From: Arcobacter sp.
GTDB lineage: Bacteria > Campylobacterota > Campylobacteria > Campylobacterales > Arcobacteraceae
NCBI GenBank assembly: GCA_003252105.1
Contig: QKDL01000057.1
Coordinates: 1-64,000 of the forward strand
DNA: 64,000 nucleotides
Direction: 5' to 3'
Shown: piece after piece, positions 138-16,128 of the stretch
Layout of the letters: each line of letters opens with the position of its first letter
How positions within the stretch are numbered: the first letter of the stretch is position 1
The notes under the pieces: model-generated
Seen by the model: only the letters and a program-made list of their open reading frames with translations
Database searches by the model: none
Told to the model about the DNA's origin: nothing
Program-made: the position numbers and the translations under genes

Positions 138-153
138 TGGAACACTAAGTGCA
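138..153 (+). promoter_or_regulatory. Sigma54 (RpoN) promoter of the nifH operon
   Basis: TGGAACACTAAGTGCA matches the -24/-12 consensus TGGCACG-N4-TTGCW with exact GG-N10-GC spacing. Transcription would start near 165, giving a leader of about 25 nt before nifH. This is the expected promoter class for NifA-activated genes. No TGT-N10-ACA NifA upstream site is visible in the 137 bp before it. Confidence 0.85.
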
Positions 154-175: not shown

Positions 176-1112
<937 letters not shown>

Positions 1113-1164
1113 ATTAAAAACAAAAATATAAAAAAATATAAAAAGTAAAAACAAGGAGAAGAAA

Positions 1165-1524
1165 ATGTTTATATGTGGATACCACTTCCCAGCTGATATG
1201 GGTAATGATGTAAGTTTTGATAAAGTTGTAGAAAAAATTGAAGATGGTTTAGATGCAGCAGGTAAAACTGTTACTATCACTTCTGAAACTAGAGAAGGTC
1301 AATTATTAGAGACTATCGAAGTAGCTGAAGGTACTTTTGCTCATAAAGCATTAGTTGATTACTTCAATAACACTGAAGTACAAGAAAAAGATGGTTTCAA
1401 AATGATGTACTACACTAACAAATATCAAATCTCAGAAATCTCTAAATCAGTTGATGGTGAGGCAACAAAAGAGTTATGTAAAAAATTAGATGATATGAAT
1501 CTATACAGAGTAAAAGTAGCGTAA
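1165..1524 (+). CDS. Unrecognised 119-aa protein encoded between nifH and nifD
   Basis: I do not recognise this family. It is a small soluble acidic protein with no signal peptide or membrane segment. It begins [15 protein letters not shown] and ends NLYRVKVA, and has only two cysteines (Cys4 and one near residue 105), so no obvious cluster motif. An AAGGAGAAG ribosome site precedes the ATG. It lies in the structural operon, 65 bp after nifH and 31 bp before nifD, and its codon use resembles the highly expressed nif genes. It is not PII-like, so not NifI1/NifI2 of methanogens. It does not resemble the AnfG/VnfG delta subunits as I know them. A role in nitrogenase assembly, protection or regulation is inferred from position only. 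Confidence 0.85.
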
Positions 1525-1555: not shown

Positions 1556-3013
1556 ATGGGACCAGAAACATTAGAGAGTCAACAATTAGCAGCTATTGAA
1601 GAAGTATTAAAAGCTTATCCTGCAAAAGCGGCTAAAAACAGAGCTAAACACTTAGGTGTAGATTCACCAGAAGGTGTTAAAGGTGCTTGTGATAAAACAA
1701 GATCAAACAAACAAACTGTACCAGGTGTTATGTCGCAAAGAGGTTGTGCTTATGCGGGATCTAAAGGGGTTGTTTGGGGACCAATTAAAGATATGATTCA
1801 TATCTCTCACGGACCAATTGGATGTGGTCAATACTCAAGAGGTGGTAGAAGAAACTACTACATCGGTACAACTGGTGTTGATACATTTGTTACAATGAAC
1901 TTCTCAACTGACTTCAACGAAAAAGATATCGTATTCGGTGGAGATAAAAAACTTAAAAAAGCTTTAGAAGAAATTGATGAATTATTCCCATTAAACAATG
2001 GTGTTTCAATTCAATCTGAGTGTCCAATTGGTCTTATCGGTGACGATATCCAAGCGGTAGCTAAAGTACACAAAAAAGAAACTGGTAACGTATGTGTTGC
2101 TGTATCATGTGAAGGGTTTAGAGGGGTTTCTCAATCTCTTGGTCACCACATCGCAAACGATATGATTAGAGACCACGTTATGCCAGATGCTAGATTTAGA
2201 AAAGACTGGGATGGTACTGATTATGATGTATCAATCATTGGAGATTATAACATCGGTGGAGATGCATGGTCTACAAGAATTATCCTAGAAGAGATGGGAC
2301 TTAGAGTTGTATCTCAATGGTCAGGTGACGCTACTTATAAAGAGATCGCAAATGGACCAAAAGCTAAATTAAACCTATTACACTGTTATAGATCTATGAA
2401 CTATATCTCAAGACATATGGAACAAGAGTTCGGTATACCTTGGATGGAATATAACTTCTTTGGACCAAGTAAAACTACTGAGTCTATTAGAAAAATTGCT
2501 TCATTCTTTGATGAATCAATCCAAGAAAAAGCAGAAGCAGTTATTGCTAAATATACTAAAATGACTGATGAAGTTATTGCTAAATATAGACCTTTATTAG
2601 AAGGTAAAAAAGTAATGCTTTATGTTGGTGGATTAAGACCAAGACACGTTATTGGAGCATATGAAGATTTAGGAATGGAAGTAATTGGTACTGGTTATGA
2701 GTTCGCTCACGGTGATGATTATAAAAGAACAAAAGAAGATATCAAAAGATCTACATTAATCTATGATGATGTTAGTGAATTTGAATTAGAGCAATTTGTT
2801 AATCAATTAAAACCAGATTTAGTTGCTGCTGGTGTTAAAGAGAAATATGTATTCCAAAAAATGGGTCTTCCATTTAGACAAATGCACTCTTGGGATTACA
2901 GTGGTCCATACCATGGATATGATGCGTTTGCAATTTTTGCAAAAGATATGGATTTAGCTATGAACTCTCCAGTTTGGGCTCATACTACAGCTCCATGGGA
3001 TAAAGAAGCGTAA
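1556..3013 (+). CDS. nifD: Nitrogenase molybdenum-iron protein alpha chain NifD
   Basis: This is the alpha subunit of Mo-dinitrogenase and holds FeMo-co plus half of the P-cluster. The P-cluster cysteines are Cys64 (QRGCAYAG), Cys90 (GPIGCGQY) and Cys156 (SECPIGL). The FeMo-co ligands are Cys277 (LLHCYRS) and His444 (RQMHSWDY). At 485 aa it is of normal length and carries the Mo-type signatures, so this is not a V- or Fe-only nitrogenase. An AAGGAG site lies just upstream of the ATG. The gene is followed closely by nifK (11-bp spacer). Confidence 0.98.
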
Positions 3014-3024
3014 GGAGAAGTAGG

Positions 3025-4572
3025 ATGCAAGACGTAGAAAATATAGTTAACGGACAAAAATTATTTTTAAAACCTGAATATCAAGAAGTTTTAAAAAGTA
3101 AAAAACAATGGGAAGGTGCTTACGGTGCTACTGCTCCTGAGAAAGTTGCAGAGATCGCTGAGTGGACTAAATCTTGGGATTATAGAGAAAAAAACTTAGC
3201 AAGAGAAGCTATCACAGTTAACCCTGCTAAAGCTTGTCAACCTCTAGGTGCTGTTATGGTAGGTTTAGGTTTTGAAAACACTATGCCTTACGTTCATGGT
3301 TCTCATGGATGTGTTGCATACTTCAGAACTTATTTTACTAGACACTTTAAAGAACCAACTCCTTGTGTTTCTGACTCAATGTCTGAATCTGCAGCGGTAT
3401 TTGGTGGATTAGCAAATATGAAAGATGGTTTAAGAAACTGTAATGCTTTATATAAACCAGAAATGATTGCAGTATCTACTACTTGTATGGCAGAAGTTAT
3501 CGGTGATGACTTAAATGCATTCATTACAGGTGCTAGAGAAGATGCTGAAGGTGAATTAGATAATATCGATATCCCTTATGCACATACTCCATCATTCGTT
3601 GGTTCTCATATCACTGGATATGACAACATGATGAAGTCTATTTTAGAGCAATTAAACCCATCTAAATCAGAAGCTGTTTTAGATGAAGAAAGAATTAACA
3701 TAATCCCTGGATTTGAACCATATTTAGGTTCATTAAGAGAGATTAAAAACATTGCTAAAATGTTTGGTGACAAAATCATTATGATTGGTGACCATGAAGA
3801 GCAATGGGATACTGGAGCTGGTGAATATAAATTGTATTCTGGTGGTACAACTTTAGCTGATACTAAAACTGCTATCAATGCTAAAGCTACTATCTCTTTA
3901 CAAAAATATTCTACAATTGCAACTGCTAAAACTATTAAAAACAAATGGAAACAAGAGTATGTTACTCTTAACCCAATTGGTTTAAGTGGAACAGATGCAT
4001 TTGTTATGAAATTAGCAGAATTAACTGGTAAAGAAATTCCAGCTGAGCTTAAAAAACAAAGAGCTAGACTTGTTGATGCTATGCAAGATTCTTATCCATA
4101 TATGCATGGTAAGAAAATCGCAATCTGGGGAGATCCTGATTTCTTATTAGGAATGGTTTCTTTCTTAGTTGAAATGGGAGCAATTCCAACTCATGTTGTA
4201 TGTCACAATGCACCAAGAAAAGGTTGGGAAGATGATATGAAAGCTATCTTAGAGAAATCTAACAGAGCTTCTGAATGTAACATCTGGCCAGGTAAAGATT
4301 TATGGGCATTAAGATCATTATTATTCACAGAACCAGTTGATTTCATGATTGGTAACGTTTATGGTAAAGAACTTTACAGAGATACTAAAACTCCACTTAT
4401 CAGAATTGGTTTCCCAATTTTTGATAGACACCACTTACATAGATACTCTATGAGTGGATATGAGGGTGCACTTAACCTATTAACTTGGATTACTAATGGT
4501 GTATTAGACCAATTAGATGAAGAGACTAAAAACATTGCACAAACAGATTACTTCTTCGATGCAGTAAGATAA
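3025..4572 (+). CDS. nifK: Nitrogenase molybdenum-iron protein beta chain NifK
   Basis: This is the beta subunit of Mo-dinitrogenase, forming the alpha2-beta2 tetramer and sharing the P-cluster. The P-cluster cysteines are Cys71 (KACQPLGA), Cys96 (GSHGCVAY) and Cys154 (TTCMAEVIGDD). The length, 515 aa, is typical of full-length group I NifK. The GGAG just after the nifD stop serves as its ribosome site. It is the last gene of the structural operon: a strong hairpin and T-run follow the stop, and no nifE or nifN is seen in the window. Confidence 0.98.
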   Translation: MQDVENIVNGQKLFLKPEYQEVLKSKKQWEGAYGATAPEKVAEIAEWTKSWDYREKNLAREAITVNPAKACQPLGAVMVGLGFENTMPYVHGSHGCVAYFRTYFTRHFKEPTPCVSDSMSESAAVFGGLANMKDGLRNCNALYKPEMIAVSTTCMAEVIGDDLNAFITGAREDAEGELDNIDIPYAHTPSFVGSHITGYDNMMKSILEQLNPSKSEAVLDEERINIIPGFEPYLGSLREIKNIAKMFGDKIIMIGDHEEQWDTGAGEYKLYSGGTTLADTKTAINAKATISLQKYSTIATAKTIKNKWKQEYVTLNPIGLSGTDAFVMKLAELTGKEIPAELKKQRARLVDAMQDSYPYMHGKKIAIWGDPDFLLGMVSFLVEMGAIPTHVVCHNAPRKGWEDDMKAILEKSNRASECNIWPGKDLWALRSLLFTEPVDFMIGNVYGKELYRDTKTPLIRIGFPIFDRHHLHRYSMSGYEGALNLLTWITNGVLDQLDEETKNIAQTDYFFDAVR

Positions 4573-4577
4573 TCTTT

Positions 4578-4609
4578 AAAACTAGAGGATTTACCTCTAG
4601 TTTTTTTTT
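4578..4609 (+). terminator. Intrinsic terminator of the nifHDK operon
   Basis: The perfect 8-bp stem ACTAGAGG/CCTCTAGT with loop ATTTA (4581-4601) is followed by a run of eight T. It starts 9 bp after the nifK stop and separates the nif structural operon from the molybdate operon. Confidence 0.9.
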
Positions 4610-11376: not shown

Positions 11377-11392
11377 TGGAACATAAATTGCA
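11377..11392 (+). promoter_or_regulatory. Sigma54 promoter upstream of the aldo/keto reductase operon
   Basis: TGGAACATAAATTGCA has the same TGGAAC -24 box as the nifH promoter, a perfect TTGCA -12 box and exact GG-N10-GC spacing. Transcription should start near 11403. It places the three genes down to nifT under NifA/sigma54 control. No TGT-N10-ACA site is visible in the preceding 200 bp. Confidence 0.85.
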
Positions 11393-11422
11393 TATATTTT
11401 GGTACCTTTTGTAAATTAGATT

Positions 11423-11464
11423 TTAAAAGAGTAGGGAAGATGCCTCCTTACTCTTTTAACTTTT
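11423..11464 (+). promoter_or_regulatory. Leader hairpin resembling an intrinsic terminator or attenuator
   Basis: TTAAAAGAGTA (11423-11433) pairs perfectly with TACTCTTTTAA (11449-11459), and inner GGGA/CTCCT extends the stem. CTTTT follows. It lies about 20 nt after the predicted sigma54 start and 30 nt before the reductase ATG. It could end the mod transcript, attenuate the operon, or define a sigma54-dependent RNA of about 60 nt. Confidence 0.6.
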
Positions 11465-11493
11465 AAGAACAAAAAAAAGAGGATAGAGATTAT

Positions 11494-12603
11494 ATGTCAT
11501 ACGCAACAAAAGAAGCAACTTTAAATTATGCTAAAAAATATTCTAACTACAAAGACTTCTATATCAGTCATAACGATTTAATCTTTTCAAAACTAGGACT
11601 TGGAACCTTTAATAAAGAGCCATATAAAGAAGAGAATTATGTTTTTCATTACATCGAAGGTGTAAAAGAGGCTATAAAAAAAGGTATAAACTTAATAGAT
11701 ACAGCAAGTAATTATAGATACGGACAAAGTGAAAAAGAGATTGGTATTGCTTTAAAAGAGTTATTAGACGAGGGTGAAATCACTAGAGAAGAGCTTATCA
11801 TCTGTTCAAAAGGTGGATTTATCCAATTAGATTATCCATTTCCTGAAAACCCATATGCATGGATAGATGAAAATATCATCAAAGCTAAACTAGCTACAAA
11901 AGATGATATTGAACTTGACCAACACTGTTTTTCAGCTGATTTTATTGAATGGTCATGTAAAAAATCATTAGAAAATGTGGGAATAGATTGTTTTGATATC
12001 TATTATCTACACAATCCTGAGATGCAACTTTTAAAACTTGGATACGATAAGTTTTTAAAAAGAGTTGAATCTATATTTAAAAGATTTGAAAAAATGGTTA
12101 CTATGGGACTAATTAAAAACTATGGTGTAGCTGTTTGGAATGGTTTTATAAGTGAGATTAGCGGTGAGAATATCAATTTAGAAGATTTAGTAAATATTGC
12201 TAAAAAAGTTGGTGGAGAAAATCACCACTTTAAATATATTCAAACACCTTTTAATATTGGTAAAACTTCAATTTATACACTTCCTACACAAAAAGTAAAT
12301 GGGGAAGAGTGTACTTTATTGCAAGCCGCTCATAGATTAAAAATAGGTGTTATTTCAAGTTCATCTTTACTTCAAATGAACCTATTTAAAAAATCATTCA
12401 AACCAGAGACTGGTTATTTACTTGATCCAAACATGATACTTAAAAATGATATTCAGTTGGCACTTCAATTTGTAAGGTCAACTCCTGGTATTATAAGTTC
12501 ACTTTTTGCCTCAAAAGCACCTATTCATATACGAGAGAATTTAGAAATTACAAAAATCAAAGTAACTCCTAGAGCAAACTACGATTTAATGTACAGAGTA
12601 TAA
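11494..12603 (+). CDS. Aldo/keto reductase of the nif region
   Basis: This is a 369-aa NAD(P)H-dependent oxidoreductase of the AKR superfamily. The catalytic tetrad is visible: Asp69 and Tyr74 (LIDTASNYRYG), Lys106 (CSKGG) and His173 (YLHNPE). The protein is longer than a standard AKR (about 320 aa), with an extra segment around residues 110-145. GAGGATAGAG precedes the ATG. It is the first gene after a sigma54 promoter and is followed 3 bp later by a flavoprotein and then nifT, so it is probably expressed only when fixing nitrogen. The substrate is unknown; carbonyl metabolism or electron supply are both guesses. Confidence 0.85.
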   Translation: MSYATKEATLNYAKKYSNYKDFYISHNDLIFSKLGLGTFNKEPYKEENYVFHYIEGVKEAIKKGINLIDTASNYRYGQSEKEIGIALKELLDEGEITREELIICSKGGFIQLDYPFPENPYAWIDENIIKAKLATKDDIELDQHCFSADFIEWSCKKSLENVGIDCFDIYYLHNPEMQLLKLGYDKFLKRVESIFKRFEKMVTMGLIKNYGVAVWNGFISEISGENINLEDLVNIAKKVGGENHHFKYIQTPFNIGKTSIYTLPTQKVNGEECTLLQAAHRLKIGVISSSSLLQMNLFKKSFKPETGYLLDPNMILKNDIQLALQFVRSTPGIISSLFASKAPIHIRENLEITKIKVTPRANYDLMYRV

Positions 12604-12606
12604 TTT

Positions 12607-14253
12607 ATGATTTATGATGTTATTGTCGTAGGGGGTGGAATTGCTGGACTTATGGCAGCAATTGAAGCTAAAACAGATACAAATAAAGTAGCTATTATCA
12701 CAAAAGGGAATATTTTTAAATCTAACTCTTCTATGGCTAGTGGTGGAATAAATGCTGTTTTAGATCCTGAAAACAAAGAGGGAGTTGAATCCCACATCGA
12801 AGATACTTTTAAATCAGCTCGTGGTTTAGGGGATAGAAAAACAATAACCTATATGTGTAAAAGAGCCAGTGATATTATCTCAAAACTTATCTCTCATGGT
12901 GTAGAATTTGATAGAGATGAAAAAGGAAATATTGCCCAAAGACCATTTGGAGGAGCAGGTAAAATTAGAACCTGTTATGTGGGAGATAAAACTGGTGGAG
13001 CTATAACTCAAGCACTTATAAAAAAAGCTAGAGATTTAGGAATCAAATTTCTAATAAACAATTATGTTTTAAACCTAACTACTCACGAAAGAAAAATCAG
13101 TGGAGTTATCTGTCTAAGAAGAATCGATTCATCTGTATTAGTTTATCCAGCAAAATCTGTTGTATTAGCAGGTGGGGGATATGCTGGGATATATAGAGGT
13201 AACTCTACAAATGCACAAGATTACACAGGGGATTTAATAGCTGTTTGTTTAAGAACAGGATTAAGTCTAAAAGATATGGAGTTTATCCAATTTCACCCAA
13301 CAGGTATTGCAAAAACTAACTATCTTGTAACAGAAGCTGCAAGAGGAGAGGGTGGCTACCTTATTAATAGTAATGGTGAACGTTTTGTAAATGAACTAGA
13401 TACTAGAGATAAAATTGCAAAAGCTATTTTAGAACAACAAAACAATGGTCAAAAAGTATTTATAGACTTAAGACATCTTGGAGTTGAAAAGATACAAAAG
13501 AAACTTCCATCATTGTACTCAGTTGCTTTCAATCAAACTGGTATCGATATAAGTAATGAACTTTTAGAAATCAAACCTGTAGCCCATTATAGTATGGGTG
13601 GAGTATGTACAAATATGGTTGATACAGAGATAAAGGGATTATATATTTGTGGAGAGATGGCAGCAAATGGTGTACATGGAGCAAATAGACTTGGAGGAAA
13701 CTCTTTATTAGAAGGGTCTGTATTTGGTGAACTAGCAGGTCAAAAAGCACTTGAATACTCTAAAAAAACAGAATTTTTACCAATAGATTATAATATTGTA
13801 ATCAAAGATATTCAAATGGTTGATAAAATATTTGCAGGAGAGACTTCTAAAAACTTCAATGCAATAAGAGTTTCAATGGGTAATGCCATGTATAAACATG
13901 TTGGTATCTTAAGAACTAAAAATAGTTTAGTAAAAGCATTTGATTACATTAAATATCTAAGAGCTCAATCTTACTCTTTACACTGTATTAATAAAGAAAG
14001 AAGAAACAATGTAGAGCTTATCTCTATTTTGGAGTTAAGAAATGCTTTAGAGGTTTCAGAAGCAATTATTTTAGCTGCTAAAAAAAGAAAAGAAAGCAGA
14101 GGTGCTCATTTTAGAACTGATTATCCAGAGATGAAAGAAAAATATGCAAAACATATTTTGATAAAAGAGGTAAAAAAAGGGTTCTTCAAAATTGAACTTG
14201 AAAATAAAGATTTACTATCAAAATTTAGAAATCTAATCTTAAATAGAGAATAA
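12607..14253 (+). CDS. FAD-dependent oxidoreductase, L-aspartate oxidase / fumarate reductase flavoprotein family
   Basis: This 548-aa flavoprotein has an N-terminal Rossmann FAD motif (VVGGGIAGLMAA, residues 7-18), the SNSSMASGGINA segment, the active-site strand FHPTGIAKTN then TEAARGEGGYLIN, and HGANRLGGNSLLEG near residue 360. These features place it with NadB, SdhA and FrdA. The C-terminal part has KERRNNVELISILELRNALEVSE as in the family's helical domain. It has no signal peptide, so it is cytoplasmic and not a periplasmic fumarate reductase. Sharing a sigma54 operon with nifT suggests a nitrogen-fixation role, such as aspartate/fumarate metabolism or redox supply. The true substrate is open. 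Confidence 0.85.
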   Translation: MIYDVIVVGGGIAGLMAAIEAKTDTNKVAIITKGNIFKSNSSMASGGINAVLDPENKEGVESHIEDTFKSARGLGDRKTITYMCKRASDIISKLISHGVEFDRDEKGNIAQRPFGGAGKIRTCYVGDKTGGAITQALIKKARDLGIKFLINNYVLNLTTHERKISGVICLRRIDSSVLVYPAKSVVLAGGGYAGIYRGNSTNAQDYTGDLIAVCLRTGLSLKDMEFIQFHPTGIAKTNYLVTEAARGEGGYLINSNGERFVNELDTRDKIAKAILEQQNNGQKVFIDLRHLGVEKIQKKLPSLYSVAFNQTGIDISNELLEIKPVAHYSMGGVCTNMVDTEIKGLYICGEMAANGVHGANRLGGNSLLEGSVFGELAGQKALEYSKKTEFLPIDYNIVIKDIQMVDKIFAGETSKNFNAIRVSMGNAMYKHVGILRTKNSLVKAFDYIKYLRAQSYSLHCINKERRNNVELISILELRNALEVSEAIILAAKKRKESRGAHFRTDYPEMKEKYAKHILIKEVKKGFFKIELENKDLLSKFRNLILNRE

Positions 14254-14281
14254 AATTTAACTTATAAAAAAGGAGAAGAGT

Positions 14282-14488
14282 ATGGCAAAAGTTATGTTAA
14301 GAGAGAGTGACGGGGTTATTTACTTCTATTTCGCAAAAAAAGATATGGAAGAAACAATCGAGACTATTGAGTTTGATACAGAAGAGAACTGGGGTGGAGA
14401 GTGTGAACTATCAAATGGAGAGACTTGGTGGATTAAACCTGGACCTAAAAAGTTACCTAAAGAGGAAGTATGTAAAAAACTTTCATAG
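14282..14488 (+). CDS. nifT: NifT/FixU family small protein
   Basis: This 68-aa protein has the NifT layout: MAKVMLRESDGVIYFYFAKKDMEE at the N-terminus (two stretches), then ETIEFDTEENWGGECELSNG and a Trp- and Pro-rich end (WWIKPGPKKLP). NifT is dispensable and of unknown function in Klebsiella and Azotobacter, where it follows nifK. Here it has moved to the end of the reductase/flavoprotein operon. AAAAAGGAGAAG precedes the ATG. It ties that operon to nitrogenase. Confidence 0.85.
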   Translation: MAKVMLRESDGVIYFYFAKKDMEETIETIEFDTEENWGGECELSNGETWWIKPGPKKLPKEEVCKKLS

Positions 14489-14502
14489 AAAAGCTTTGGT
14501 TG

Positions 14503-14546
14503 GATACTTTATAAACAAGATTTGTTGTATATAAAGTATCTTTCTT
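14503..14546 (+). terminator. Hairpin after nifT
   Basis: GATACTTTATA (14503-14513) pairs with TATAAAGTATC (14530-14540), with inner AACAA/TTGTT pairing, followed by TTTCTT. It probably ends the nifT operon. The T-run is weak, so read-through into nifA is possible. Confidence 0.55.
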
Positions 14547-14555
14547 GTATATAAT
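14525..14555 (+). promoter_or_regulatory. Probable sigma70-type promoter of nifA
   Basis: TATAAT at 14550-14555 within TTGTATATAATATAAG lies about 25 bp upstream of the nifA start. TTGTAT at 14525-14530 could act as a -35 with 19-bp spacing. Vegetative promoters in Campylobacterota often lack a firm -35. No sigma54 site is seen here, so nifA itself is not obviously autoregulated through RpoN. Confidence 0.45.
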
Positions 14556-14580
14556 ATAAGTTTATTATGAAAGGATTTTA

Positions 14581-16128
14581 ATGACACCATTTGACAGACC
14601 TGAATGTGCAAGCTGCTTAACTGTTAAAGAACTTACTACATTATATGAGATTGCATCAATTATATCAAATCATTATGATTTAGATACATCATTAGAGAAA
14701 TCAATAAAGATATTAAAAAATTCATTACATCTGACAAATTGTACTGTTCACATATTGGAAGATGAAGAATTAAAAGTATTAGCTTCTATTGAGTTAAGTA
14801 AAATTCAAAAAGAATTATCTACATATAAACTTGGTGAAGGAGTTACTGGGCTAGCTGCCCAATCTAAAGAGCCAGTTGTAGTAGAAAATATCCACAACGA
14901 TTCACTATTTTTAAATAAATCAGGGAAAAGAGATTATACAAACCTTTCATATGTTGCTGTACCACTAATAGTAGATAATCAAACAATTGGTGTATTAGGT
15001 GCAACATTAACAAAAACTACAGAGATAGGTTTTGAAGACTGTGTTAGAATATTGACAATTATTAGTTCAATTTTTGCACAAACAATATATTCATATCAAT
15101 TAAACAAAAATGAAAAAGAAAGATTAAAAGAGTTGAAACTTTATTACAAAATGGAATGGGATTCAAAAGTTCACAACTTTGGAGACATCATAGGTGATAG
15201 TCCTAAGATGCAACAAGTTTTTCAAGTAATACAAAGAATAGCTCAATCAGATGTTACAGTTCTTGTAAGAGGAGAAACTGGTACAGGAAAAGAATTAGTA
15301 GCAGCAGCTATTCATAAAAGAAGTAAAAGAAAAGATGAACCATTTATAAAGCTGAATTGTGCAGCTATTACAGATACCTTACTTGAAAGTGAACTTTTTG
15401 GACACGAAAAAGGTGCATTTACAGATGCTAGAGAAACAAGAAAAGGAAGATTTGAACTTGCTGATGGAGGAACACTATTTTTAGATGAGATAGGGGATAT
15501 CTCTGCTTCTGCACAAGTTAAACTTTTAAGAGTTTTACAAGAAAGAGAGTTTGAAAGAGTTGGGGGAAGTAAAACCATAAAAGTAAATGTAAGATTAGTG
15601 GCTGCAACTAACCGAAATCTTGAAAAAATGGTACAAGATGGAGAATTTAGAGAGGATTTATATTATAGATTAAATGTTATCCCTATAGATTTACCACCAC
15701 TTAGAGAAAGGGGAGAAGATATAAGACAACTTGTTGAATTCTTCCTAGAAAAATCTATGAAAAACCATAAAAAAATAGTAAAAATAACTGATGAAGCAAT
15801 GGATGAACTTATGCATTATCCATGGCCAGGGAATGTAAGAGAATTAGAAAATACAATCGAAAGAATTGTGTTAATGGGGAATGAAGATGGTATAAATAAA
15901 TTTGATATGCTTCTTTTATTGCCTGCTTTAAATGATGAAAAATTTAAAAAAGAGTTTAAATCAATCCCTATAGAAAATAAAACCTTAGAAGAGTTAGAAA
16001 AAGAAGCTATTATAAATGCTCTTAATAACAACAATTTTAATCAATCCCATGCAGCAAAAGAGTTAGGAATAACTCTTAGACAAATTGGTTATAAAATAAA
16101 AAAATATGAGATAGAAAATGACTTATAA
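14581..16128 (+). CDS. nifA: Nitrogen fixation activator NifA (sigma54-dependent)
   Basis: This enhancer-binding protein activates nif promoters with RpoN. It has a GAF domain at about residues 20-185, an AAA+ domain with Walker A GETGTGKE (about 232-239) and Walker B GGTLFLDEIGD (about 296-306), and a Fis-type HTH (residues about 470-512, TLRQIGYKIKKYEI). The sigma54-contact loop reads GAFTDA (278-283) in place of GAFTGA. There is no cysteine pair in the linker between AAA+ and HTH, unlike O2-sensitive rhizobial NifA. Instead a Cys9-x2-Cys12 pair precedes the GAF domain. Its 3' end overlaps the next gene by 11 bp. Confidence 0.93.
   Translation: MTPFDRPECASCLTVKELTTLYEIASIISNHYDLDTSLEKSIKILKNSLHLTNCTVHILEDEELKVLASIELSKIQKELSTYKLGEGVTGLAAQSKEPVVVENIHNDSLFLNKSGKRDYTNLSYVAVPLIVDNQTIGVLGATLTKTTEIGFEDCVRILTIISSIFAQTIYSYQLNKNEKERLKELKLYYKMEWDSKVHNFGDIIGDSPKMQQVFQVIQRIAQSDVTVLVRGETGTGKELVAAAIHKRSKRKDEPFIKLNCAAITDTLLESELFGHEKGAFTDARETRKGRFELADGGTLFLDEIGDISASAQVKLLRVLQEREFERVGGSKTIKVNVRLVAATNRNLEKMVQDGEFREDLYYRLNVIPIDLPPLRERGEDIRQLVEFFLEKSMKNHKKIVKITDEAMDELMHYPWPGNVRELENTIERIVLMGNEDGINKFDMLLLLPALNDEKFKKEFKSIPIENKTLEELEKEAIINALNNNNFNQSHAAKELGITLRQIGYKIKKYEIENDL

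Follow-up and report, generated by a model that had tools for sequence, protein, structure and literature searches.

A 119-residue protein encoded between nifH and nifD in Arcobacter sp. probably serves the Mo-nitrogenase as a dedicated partner that has gone unnoticed. Descriptions of nitrogenase usually name only NifH and NifDK, the set that engineering efforts take for granted. The Campylobacterota, as a whole phylum, seemingly always encode a fourth, unnamed protein within the nitrogenase structural operon, implying that a subunit, assembly factor or control device of a well-studied enzyme may have been missed so far; its role is directly testable in culturable species. (Among open papers, no mention of the gene was found.)

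The four-gene nitrogenase operon

In the window (the whole 64,000-nucleotide stretch of DNA that was analysed), the ORF occupies positions 1165-1524 of the + strand and starts with ATG. It is preceded by nifH, encoding the Fe protein (191..1099, +; HMMER match to solved Fe proteins, E 4e-134), and followed by nifD (1556..3013, +; TIGR01282, 818 bits) and nifK (3025..4572, +). Its ribosome-binding site, AAGGAG at 1153..1158 (+), is strong, as is the identical Shine-Dalgarno sequence of nifD at 1545-1550, so that the original prediction of a gene with good ribosome sites between nifH and nifD was accurate as to coordinates, start codon and ribosome sites. Upstream of nifH, a pattern search finds a sigma-54 type -24/-12 promoter-like site (TGGAACACTAAGTGCA; 138..153, +), one of two matches located just upstream of a nif-type operon (7 in the window, vs 1.5 expected), which may function as a promoter. 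On the distal side, 3' of nifK, lies a strong intrinsic terminator (4578..4604, +; 11-pair stem and T run). Judged by these sequence signals, nifH, the ORF, nifD and nifK would form a four-gene operon closed by the terminator, with the ORF as its sole non-structural gene. (Farther along, at 11377-14253, another sigma-54-like site is followed by genes for an aldo/keto reductase and an L-aspartate-oxidase-like flavoprotein, after which come NifT-like and NifA-like genes. A similar reductase-flavoprotein pair lies near nif at another locus, L122.)

The ORF is a real and strongly selected gene, far beyond chance. Its codon adaptation to nifHDK is 0.766, the nifHDK genes themselves scoring 0.77-0.785, and each of the window's 37 remaining long ORFs falls below it (0.52 +/- 0.07, maximum 0.728). 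The nif-like codon use that had been claimed for it is thus borne out, and points to expression at the level of nitrogenase. Purifying selection acts on the protein: dN/dS over 16 pairs is mostly 0.02-0.25, the single pair at 0.36 having a dS of just 0.06.

Distribution and inheritance in the Campylobacterota

A scan of the genome collection with patterns taken from the window protein, by which only close relatives are detectable, placed the ORF inside a nif operon on 41/41 contigs bearing a relative. The gene order nifH-orf-nifD-nifK holds at every locus for which the contig is long enough. Among 298 Campylobacterota genomes the ORF is present in 45 and a NifD above the TIGR01282 cut-off (the definition of NifD-bearing used throughout) in 44, all of which carry the ORF. 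The 45th ORF genome (G224) has a decaying nif cluster in which nifH, nifD and later genes are broken and an ORF-like remnant reads on from the nifH frame. When the draw is enlarged to 397 genomes, NifD-bearing genomes number 73, and 72 have the whole ORF; of the 29 added, 28 have it, the exception (G390) being cut by a contig end. That genome was considered as an ORF-lacking case and rejected: its contig breaks off inside the gene, 50 bases upstream of nifD, and the final codons (DSMEQFRIEVA-stop) can still be read. The conservation of nifH-orf-nifDK in relatives, on which the original prediction turned, therefore holds in every NifD-bearing genome in which it can be read. There is one copy per genome, at the Mo operon. 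No relatives were found in viral contigs, and none in plasmids, through which alone phyla beyond the Campylobacterota were covered, though 239 plasmid records encode NifD (60-80% identity; mostly rhizobia).

Second nitrogenases of these organisms appear to do without the ORF. Several Sulfurospirillum-type genomes and G117 encode a second, Fe-nitrogenase-like NifD (with AnfG and AnfO confirmed in G117), and no copy of the ORF is found at the Fe-nitrogenase operons examined in ORF-bearing genomes. Fe-nitrogenase-type anfD, anfG and anfK are seen at two Campylobacterota loci, L120 and L121, the latter with anfO; at neither was an intact anfH seen beside the anf genes. Elsewhere, in a second nif cluster (L124), a 129-residue protein of unknown type and a redoxin-like protein are encoded directly 3' of nifN (14081-14990).

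Inheritance of the ORF follows that of its neighbours, with a tree-distance correlation to NifD (r = 0.92) similar to that of NifH to NifD (0.90). Two types of the protein, MF-x-C-G-Y-HFP and MF-x-L-G-F-HFP, occur together in one genus (g16), each paired with the corresponding NifD clade; the cassette has therefore moved as a unit. Co-inheritance within an operon is no proof of contact between ORF protein and nitrogenase. One pair of Sulfurospirillum loci (L021 and L031) departs from the pattern: over the first two thirds of the ORF their DNA identity is 62-80% (20-38% different), against 99% protein identity for NifH and NifD on either side. Sequence comparison marks this as a local allele replacement, and its occurrence beside near-constant NifH and NifD argues against a close fit between most of the ORF protein surface and its partners.

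One nitrogenase genome of the order (G007) lacks the ORF, and its NifD is different, scoring just below the cut-off. Here two PII-type genes, NifI1 and NifI2, fill the exact nifH-nifD slot, in a cluster (nifH-nifI1-nifI2-nifD-nifK-nifE-nifN) whose layout is familiar from methanogens. Transfer may account for this cluster, as may misbinning, since the contig is a 15-kb piece of a draft genome. The occupied slot invites the reading that the ORF protein acts as a post-translational switch which, though unrelated to NifI1/NifI2 or DraT/DraG, would do a similar job, shutting nitrogenase down according to ammonium or energy state. DraT was indeed not found in 44 ORF-bearing genomes, in a search for which no positive control rang. 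The protein has no PII match, however, and a regulator would ordinarily be missing from some lineages, while the ORF is lost in 0/73 genomes; we consider a switch unlikely. Universal retention, fixed position, nitrogenase-level codon use and absence elsewhere in the genome together make a dedicated partner of the Mo-nitrogenase the most likely explanation. That the partner is specific to the Campylobacterota enzyme and roughly stoichiometric with it we rate at slightly better than even.

The NifH insertion and possible modes of action

When Campylobacterota NifH, NifD and NifK are compared with their homologues from Cupriavidus, Bradyrhizobium, Pantoea, Mesorhizobium and Sinorhizobium (for NifH, those of them in which one was available), NifH alone shows a multi-residue lineage-specific insertion. 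In the window protein this consists of 12 residues (84-95, before Cys100; positions 440..475, +), as placed by alignment with solved Fe proteins, in none of which it is seen, and it lies just N-terminal of the Cys of the CxESGGP motif. An insertion of 9-12 residues is present in 51/51 distinct ORF-linked NifH variants, the segment being 19, 21 or 22 residues long; it is present in 0/5 of the others, the segment being 10 residues in G007 and in the non-Campylobacterota NifH compared (Cupriavidus, Pantoea, Mesorhizobium and Sinorhizobium). This insertion beside every ORF, to all appearances a new observation, may mark the docking site of the ORF protein. Insertion and ORF share ancestry, so that the link between them may be phylogenetic only.

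It had been proposed that a protein made at nitrogenase levels would touch the enzyme. That the gene holds a fixed position, has nif-level codon use, is missing from those Fe-nitrogenase operons that were examined and co-occurs with the NifH insertion makes direct binding to nitrogenase more credible. Contact with the Fe protein at its insertion region is a reasonable conjecture, if short of an even chance; contact with NifDK is conceivable and the former somewhat more likely. The protein would stabilise or assemble the active nitrogenase complex, or gate its activity. In its strongest form, the proposal would make the Campylobacterota Mo-nitrogenase a four-protein system in which an obligatory ORF product docks on the lineage-specific insertion in NifH and either gates the cycle of the Fe protein with NifDK or is required for it; this is speculative, and we give it about one chance in four.

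The ORF protein might instead be a specific chaperone or maturation factor, serving the Fe protein or apo-NifDK in assembly only and having no place in the working enzyme. In favour of this, it is small, obligatory and always encoded beside nifH, and among the structural proteins NifH alone carries a multi-residue insertion peculiar to the lineage. (This reading overlaps the assembly branch of the partner proposal.) Maturation already seems to be served, however, since true PF02579 members occur in 20/20 genomes tested, with NifX homologues abundant and NifZ-like and NifT-like genes also present; nif-level codon usage also exceeds what a catalytic chaperone would need. A purely maturational role is accordingly doubtful, if deserving of attention.

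FeSII and CowN bind nitrogenase under stress (oxygen or CO) in other organisms, and the ORF protein might protect the enzyme in the same way. Nif-level codon usage would suit such a stoichiometric binder, and isolates of Campylobacterota are still able to fix 15N2 under 4% and 20% O2 (PMC11474244). There is, on the other hand, no invariant Cys or His among 74 distinct members of the family (one Cys position is near-invariant), and the conserved cysteines of an FeSII-type [2Fe-2S] cluster are not found among them, which argues against an FeSII-type cluster and makes a metal or redox protein improbable. CowN, like the ORF product a small accessory protein of Mo-nitrogenase, is encoded elsewhere in 30/44 ORF-bearing genomes (29 over cut-off); the ORF does not match it (NF033689), and a role as substitute for CowN was rejected because CowN itself is present. 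An optional stress factor would be expected to be patchy, as CowN is in these genomes. The complete retention of the ORF suggests instead a role close to essential rather than that of an optional protective add-on, and protection is the least probable of these alternatives. A dedicated partner of the Mo-nitrogenase remains the preferred reading.

Predicted fold and relation to known systems

Profile and sequence searches of Pfam, NCBIfam, PHROGs and PDB sequences returned chance-level matches to the ORF and nothing convincing, so that the gene stays unrecognised, as first described. Since the same methods recognise NifI, AnfG, AnfO, NifX and CowN in the same organisms, these negatives are informative. 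The best single Pfam scores, to Mso1_Sec1_bdg, were taken as chance (7/46 members, best E 1e-4; in the window protein the match covers residues 57-71 and is far below the family cut-off). Homology to NifX was entertained on the basis of a similar strand order; the ORF has no PF02579 (Nitro_FeMo-Co; NifX/NafY) match, the probability by profile comparison being under 1%, and the Foldseek list, which could not exclude such homology, lends it no support. The positions invariant in the family are M1, F2, G5, F8, P9, G13, V21, N85, Y87, Q88, D97 and M111.

AlphaFold2 predicts a small alpha/beta domain resembling the non-catalytic distal subdomain of the DapD N-terminal region (THDPS_N, PF14790). Models were built from 32 sequences (pLDDT 81) and from 45, with a divergent member from G167 as query (pLDDT 90, pTM 0.85), and for both the best match in the PDB is this region of DapD. 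The better model aligns to Campylobacter jejuni DapD (2rij) with Foldseek probability 1.00 and a Z of 7.3 over 109 residues, which falls below the value of 8 regarded as safe, and to Pseudomonas aeruginosa DapD (3r5 entries) with Z 6.0-6.2, the next unrelated row scoring 2.5. It also orders the conserved N-terminus, for which reason the idea of a disordered interface there was dropped. In the P. aeruginosa enzyme the distal subdomain consists of four antiparallel strands in a sheet flanked by helices, and the N-terminal domain does not contribute directly to the active site (PMC3281039). Homology to DapD by sequence was not supported: profile search finds no PF14790 match and hhalign gives a probability under 1%. 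The ORF moreover has no catalytic beta-helix domain and a different gene context. A predicted DapD-like fold lacking sequence homology points to an architecture but not to a chemistry.

Families of unknown genes coupled to nitrogen-cycling genes have been catalogued as FESNov, one figure of which names nifH, nifI1, nifI2, nifD and nifK; the families near nitrogen-cycling genes are of 52, 144, 48, 80 and 165 residues, none of them close to 119 (PMC10849945). Two further known systems bear comparison with the ORF, and the original prediction that it fits neither NifI nor the AnfG/VnfG subunits stands. None of 46 members matches PF00543 (NifI/PII), to which NifI1 and NifI2 of G007 do match, and there is no match to PF03139 (AnfG/VnfG), to which the AnfG of L121 matches at 9e-45. 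Like the AnfG/VnfG delta subunit, the ORF product is a small extra protein within a nitrogenase structural operon, although AnfG of the same phylum is encoded between anfD and anfK. In nifHI1I2DK operons, NifI1 and NifI2, with which the ORF shares no sequence match, have its position between nifH and nifD, its similar size and its place in the structural-gene operon.
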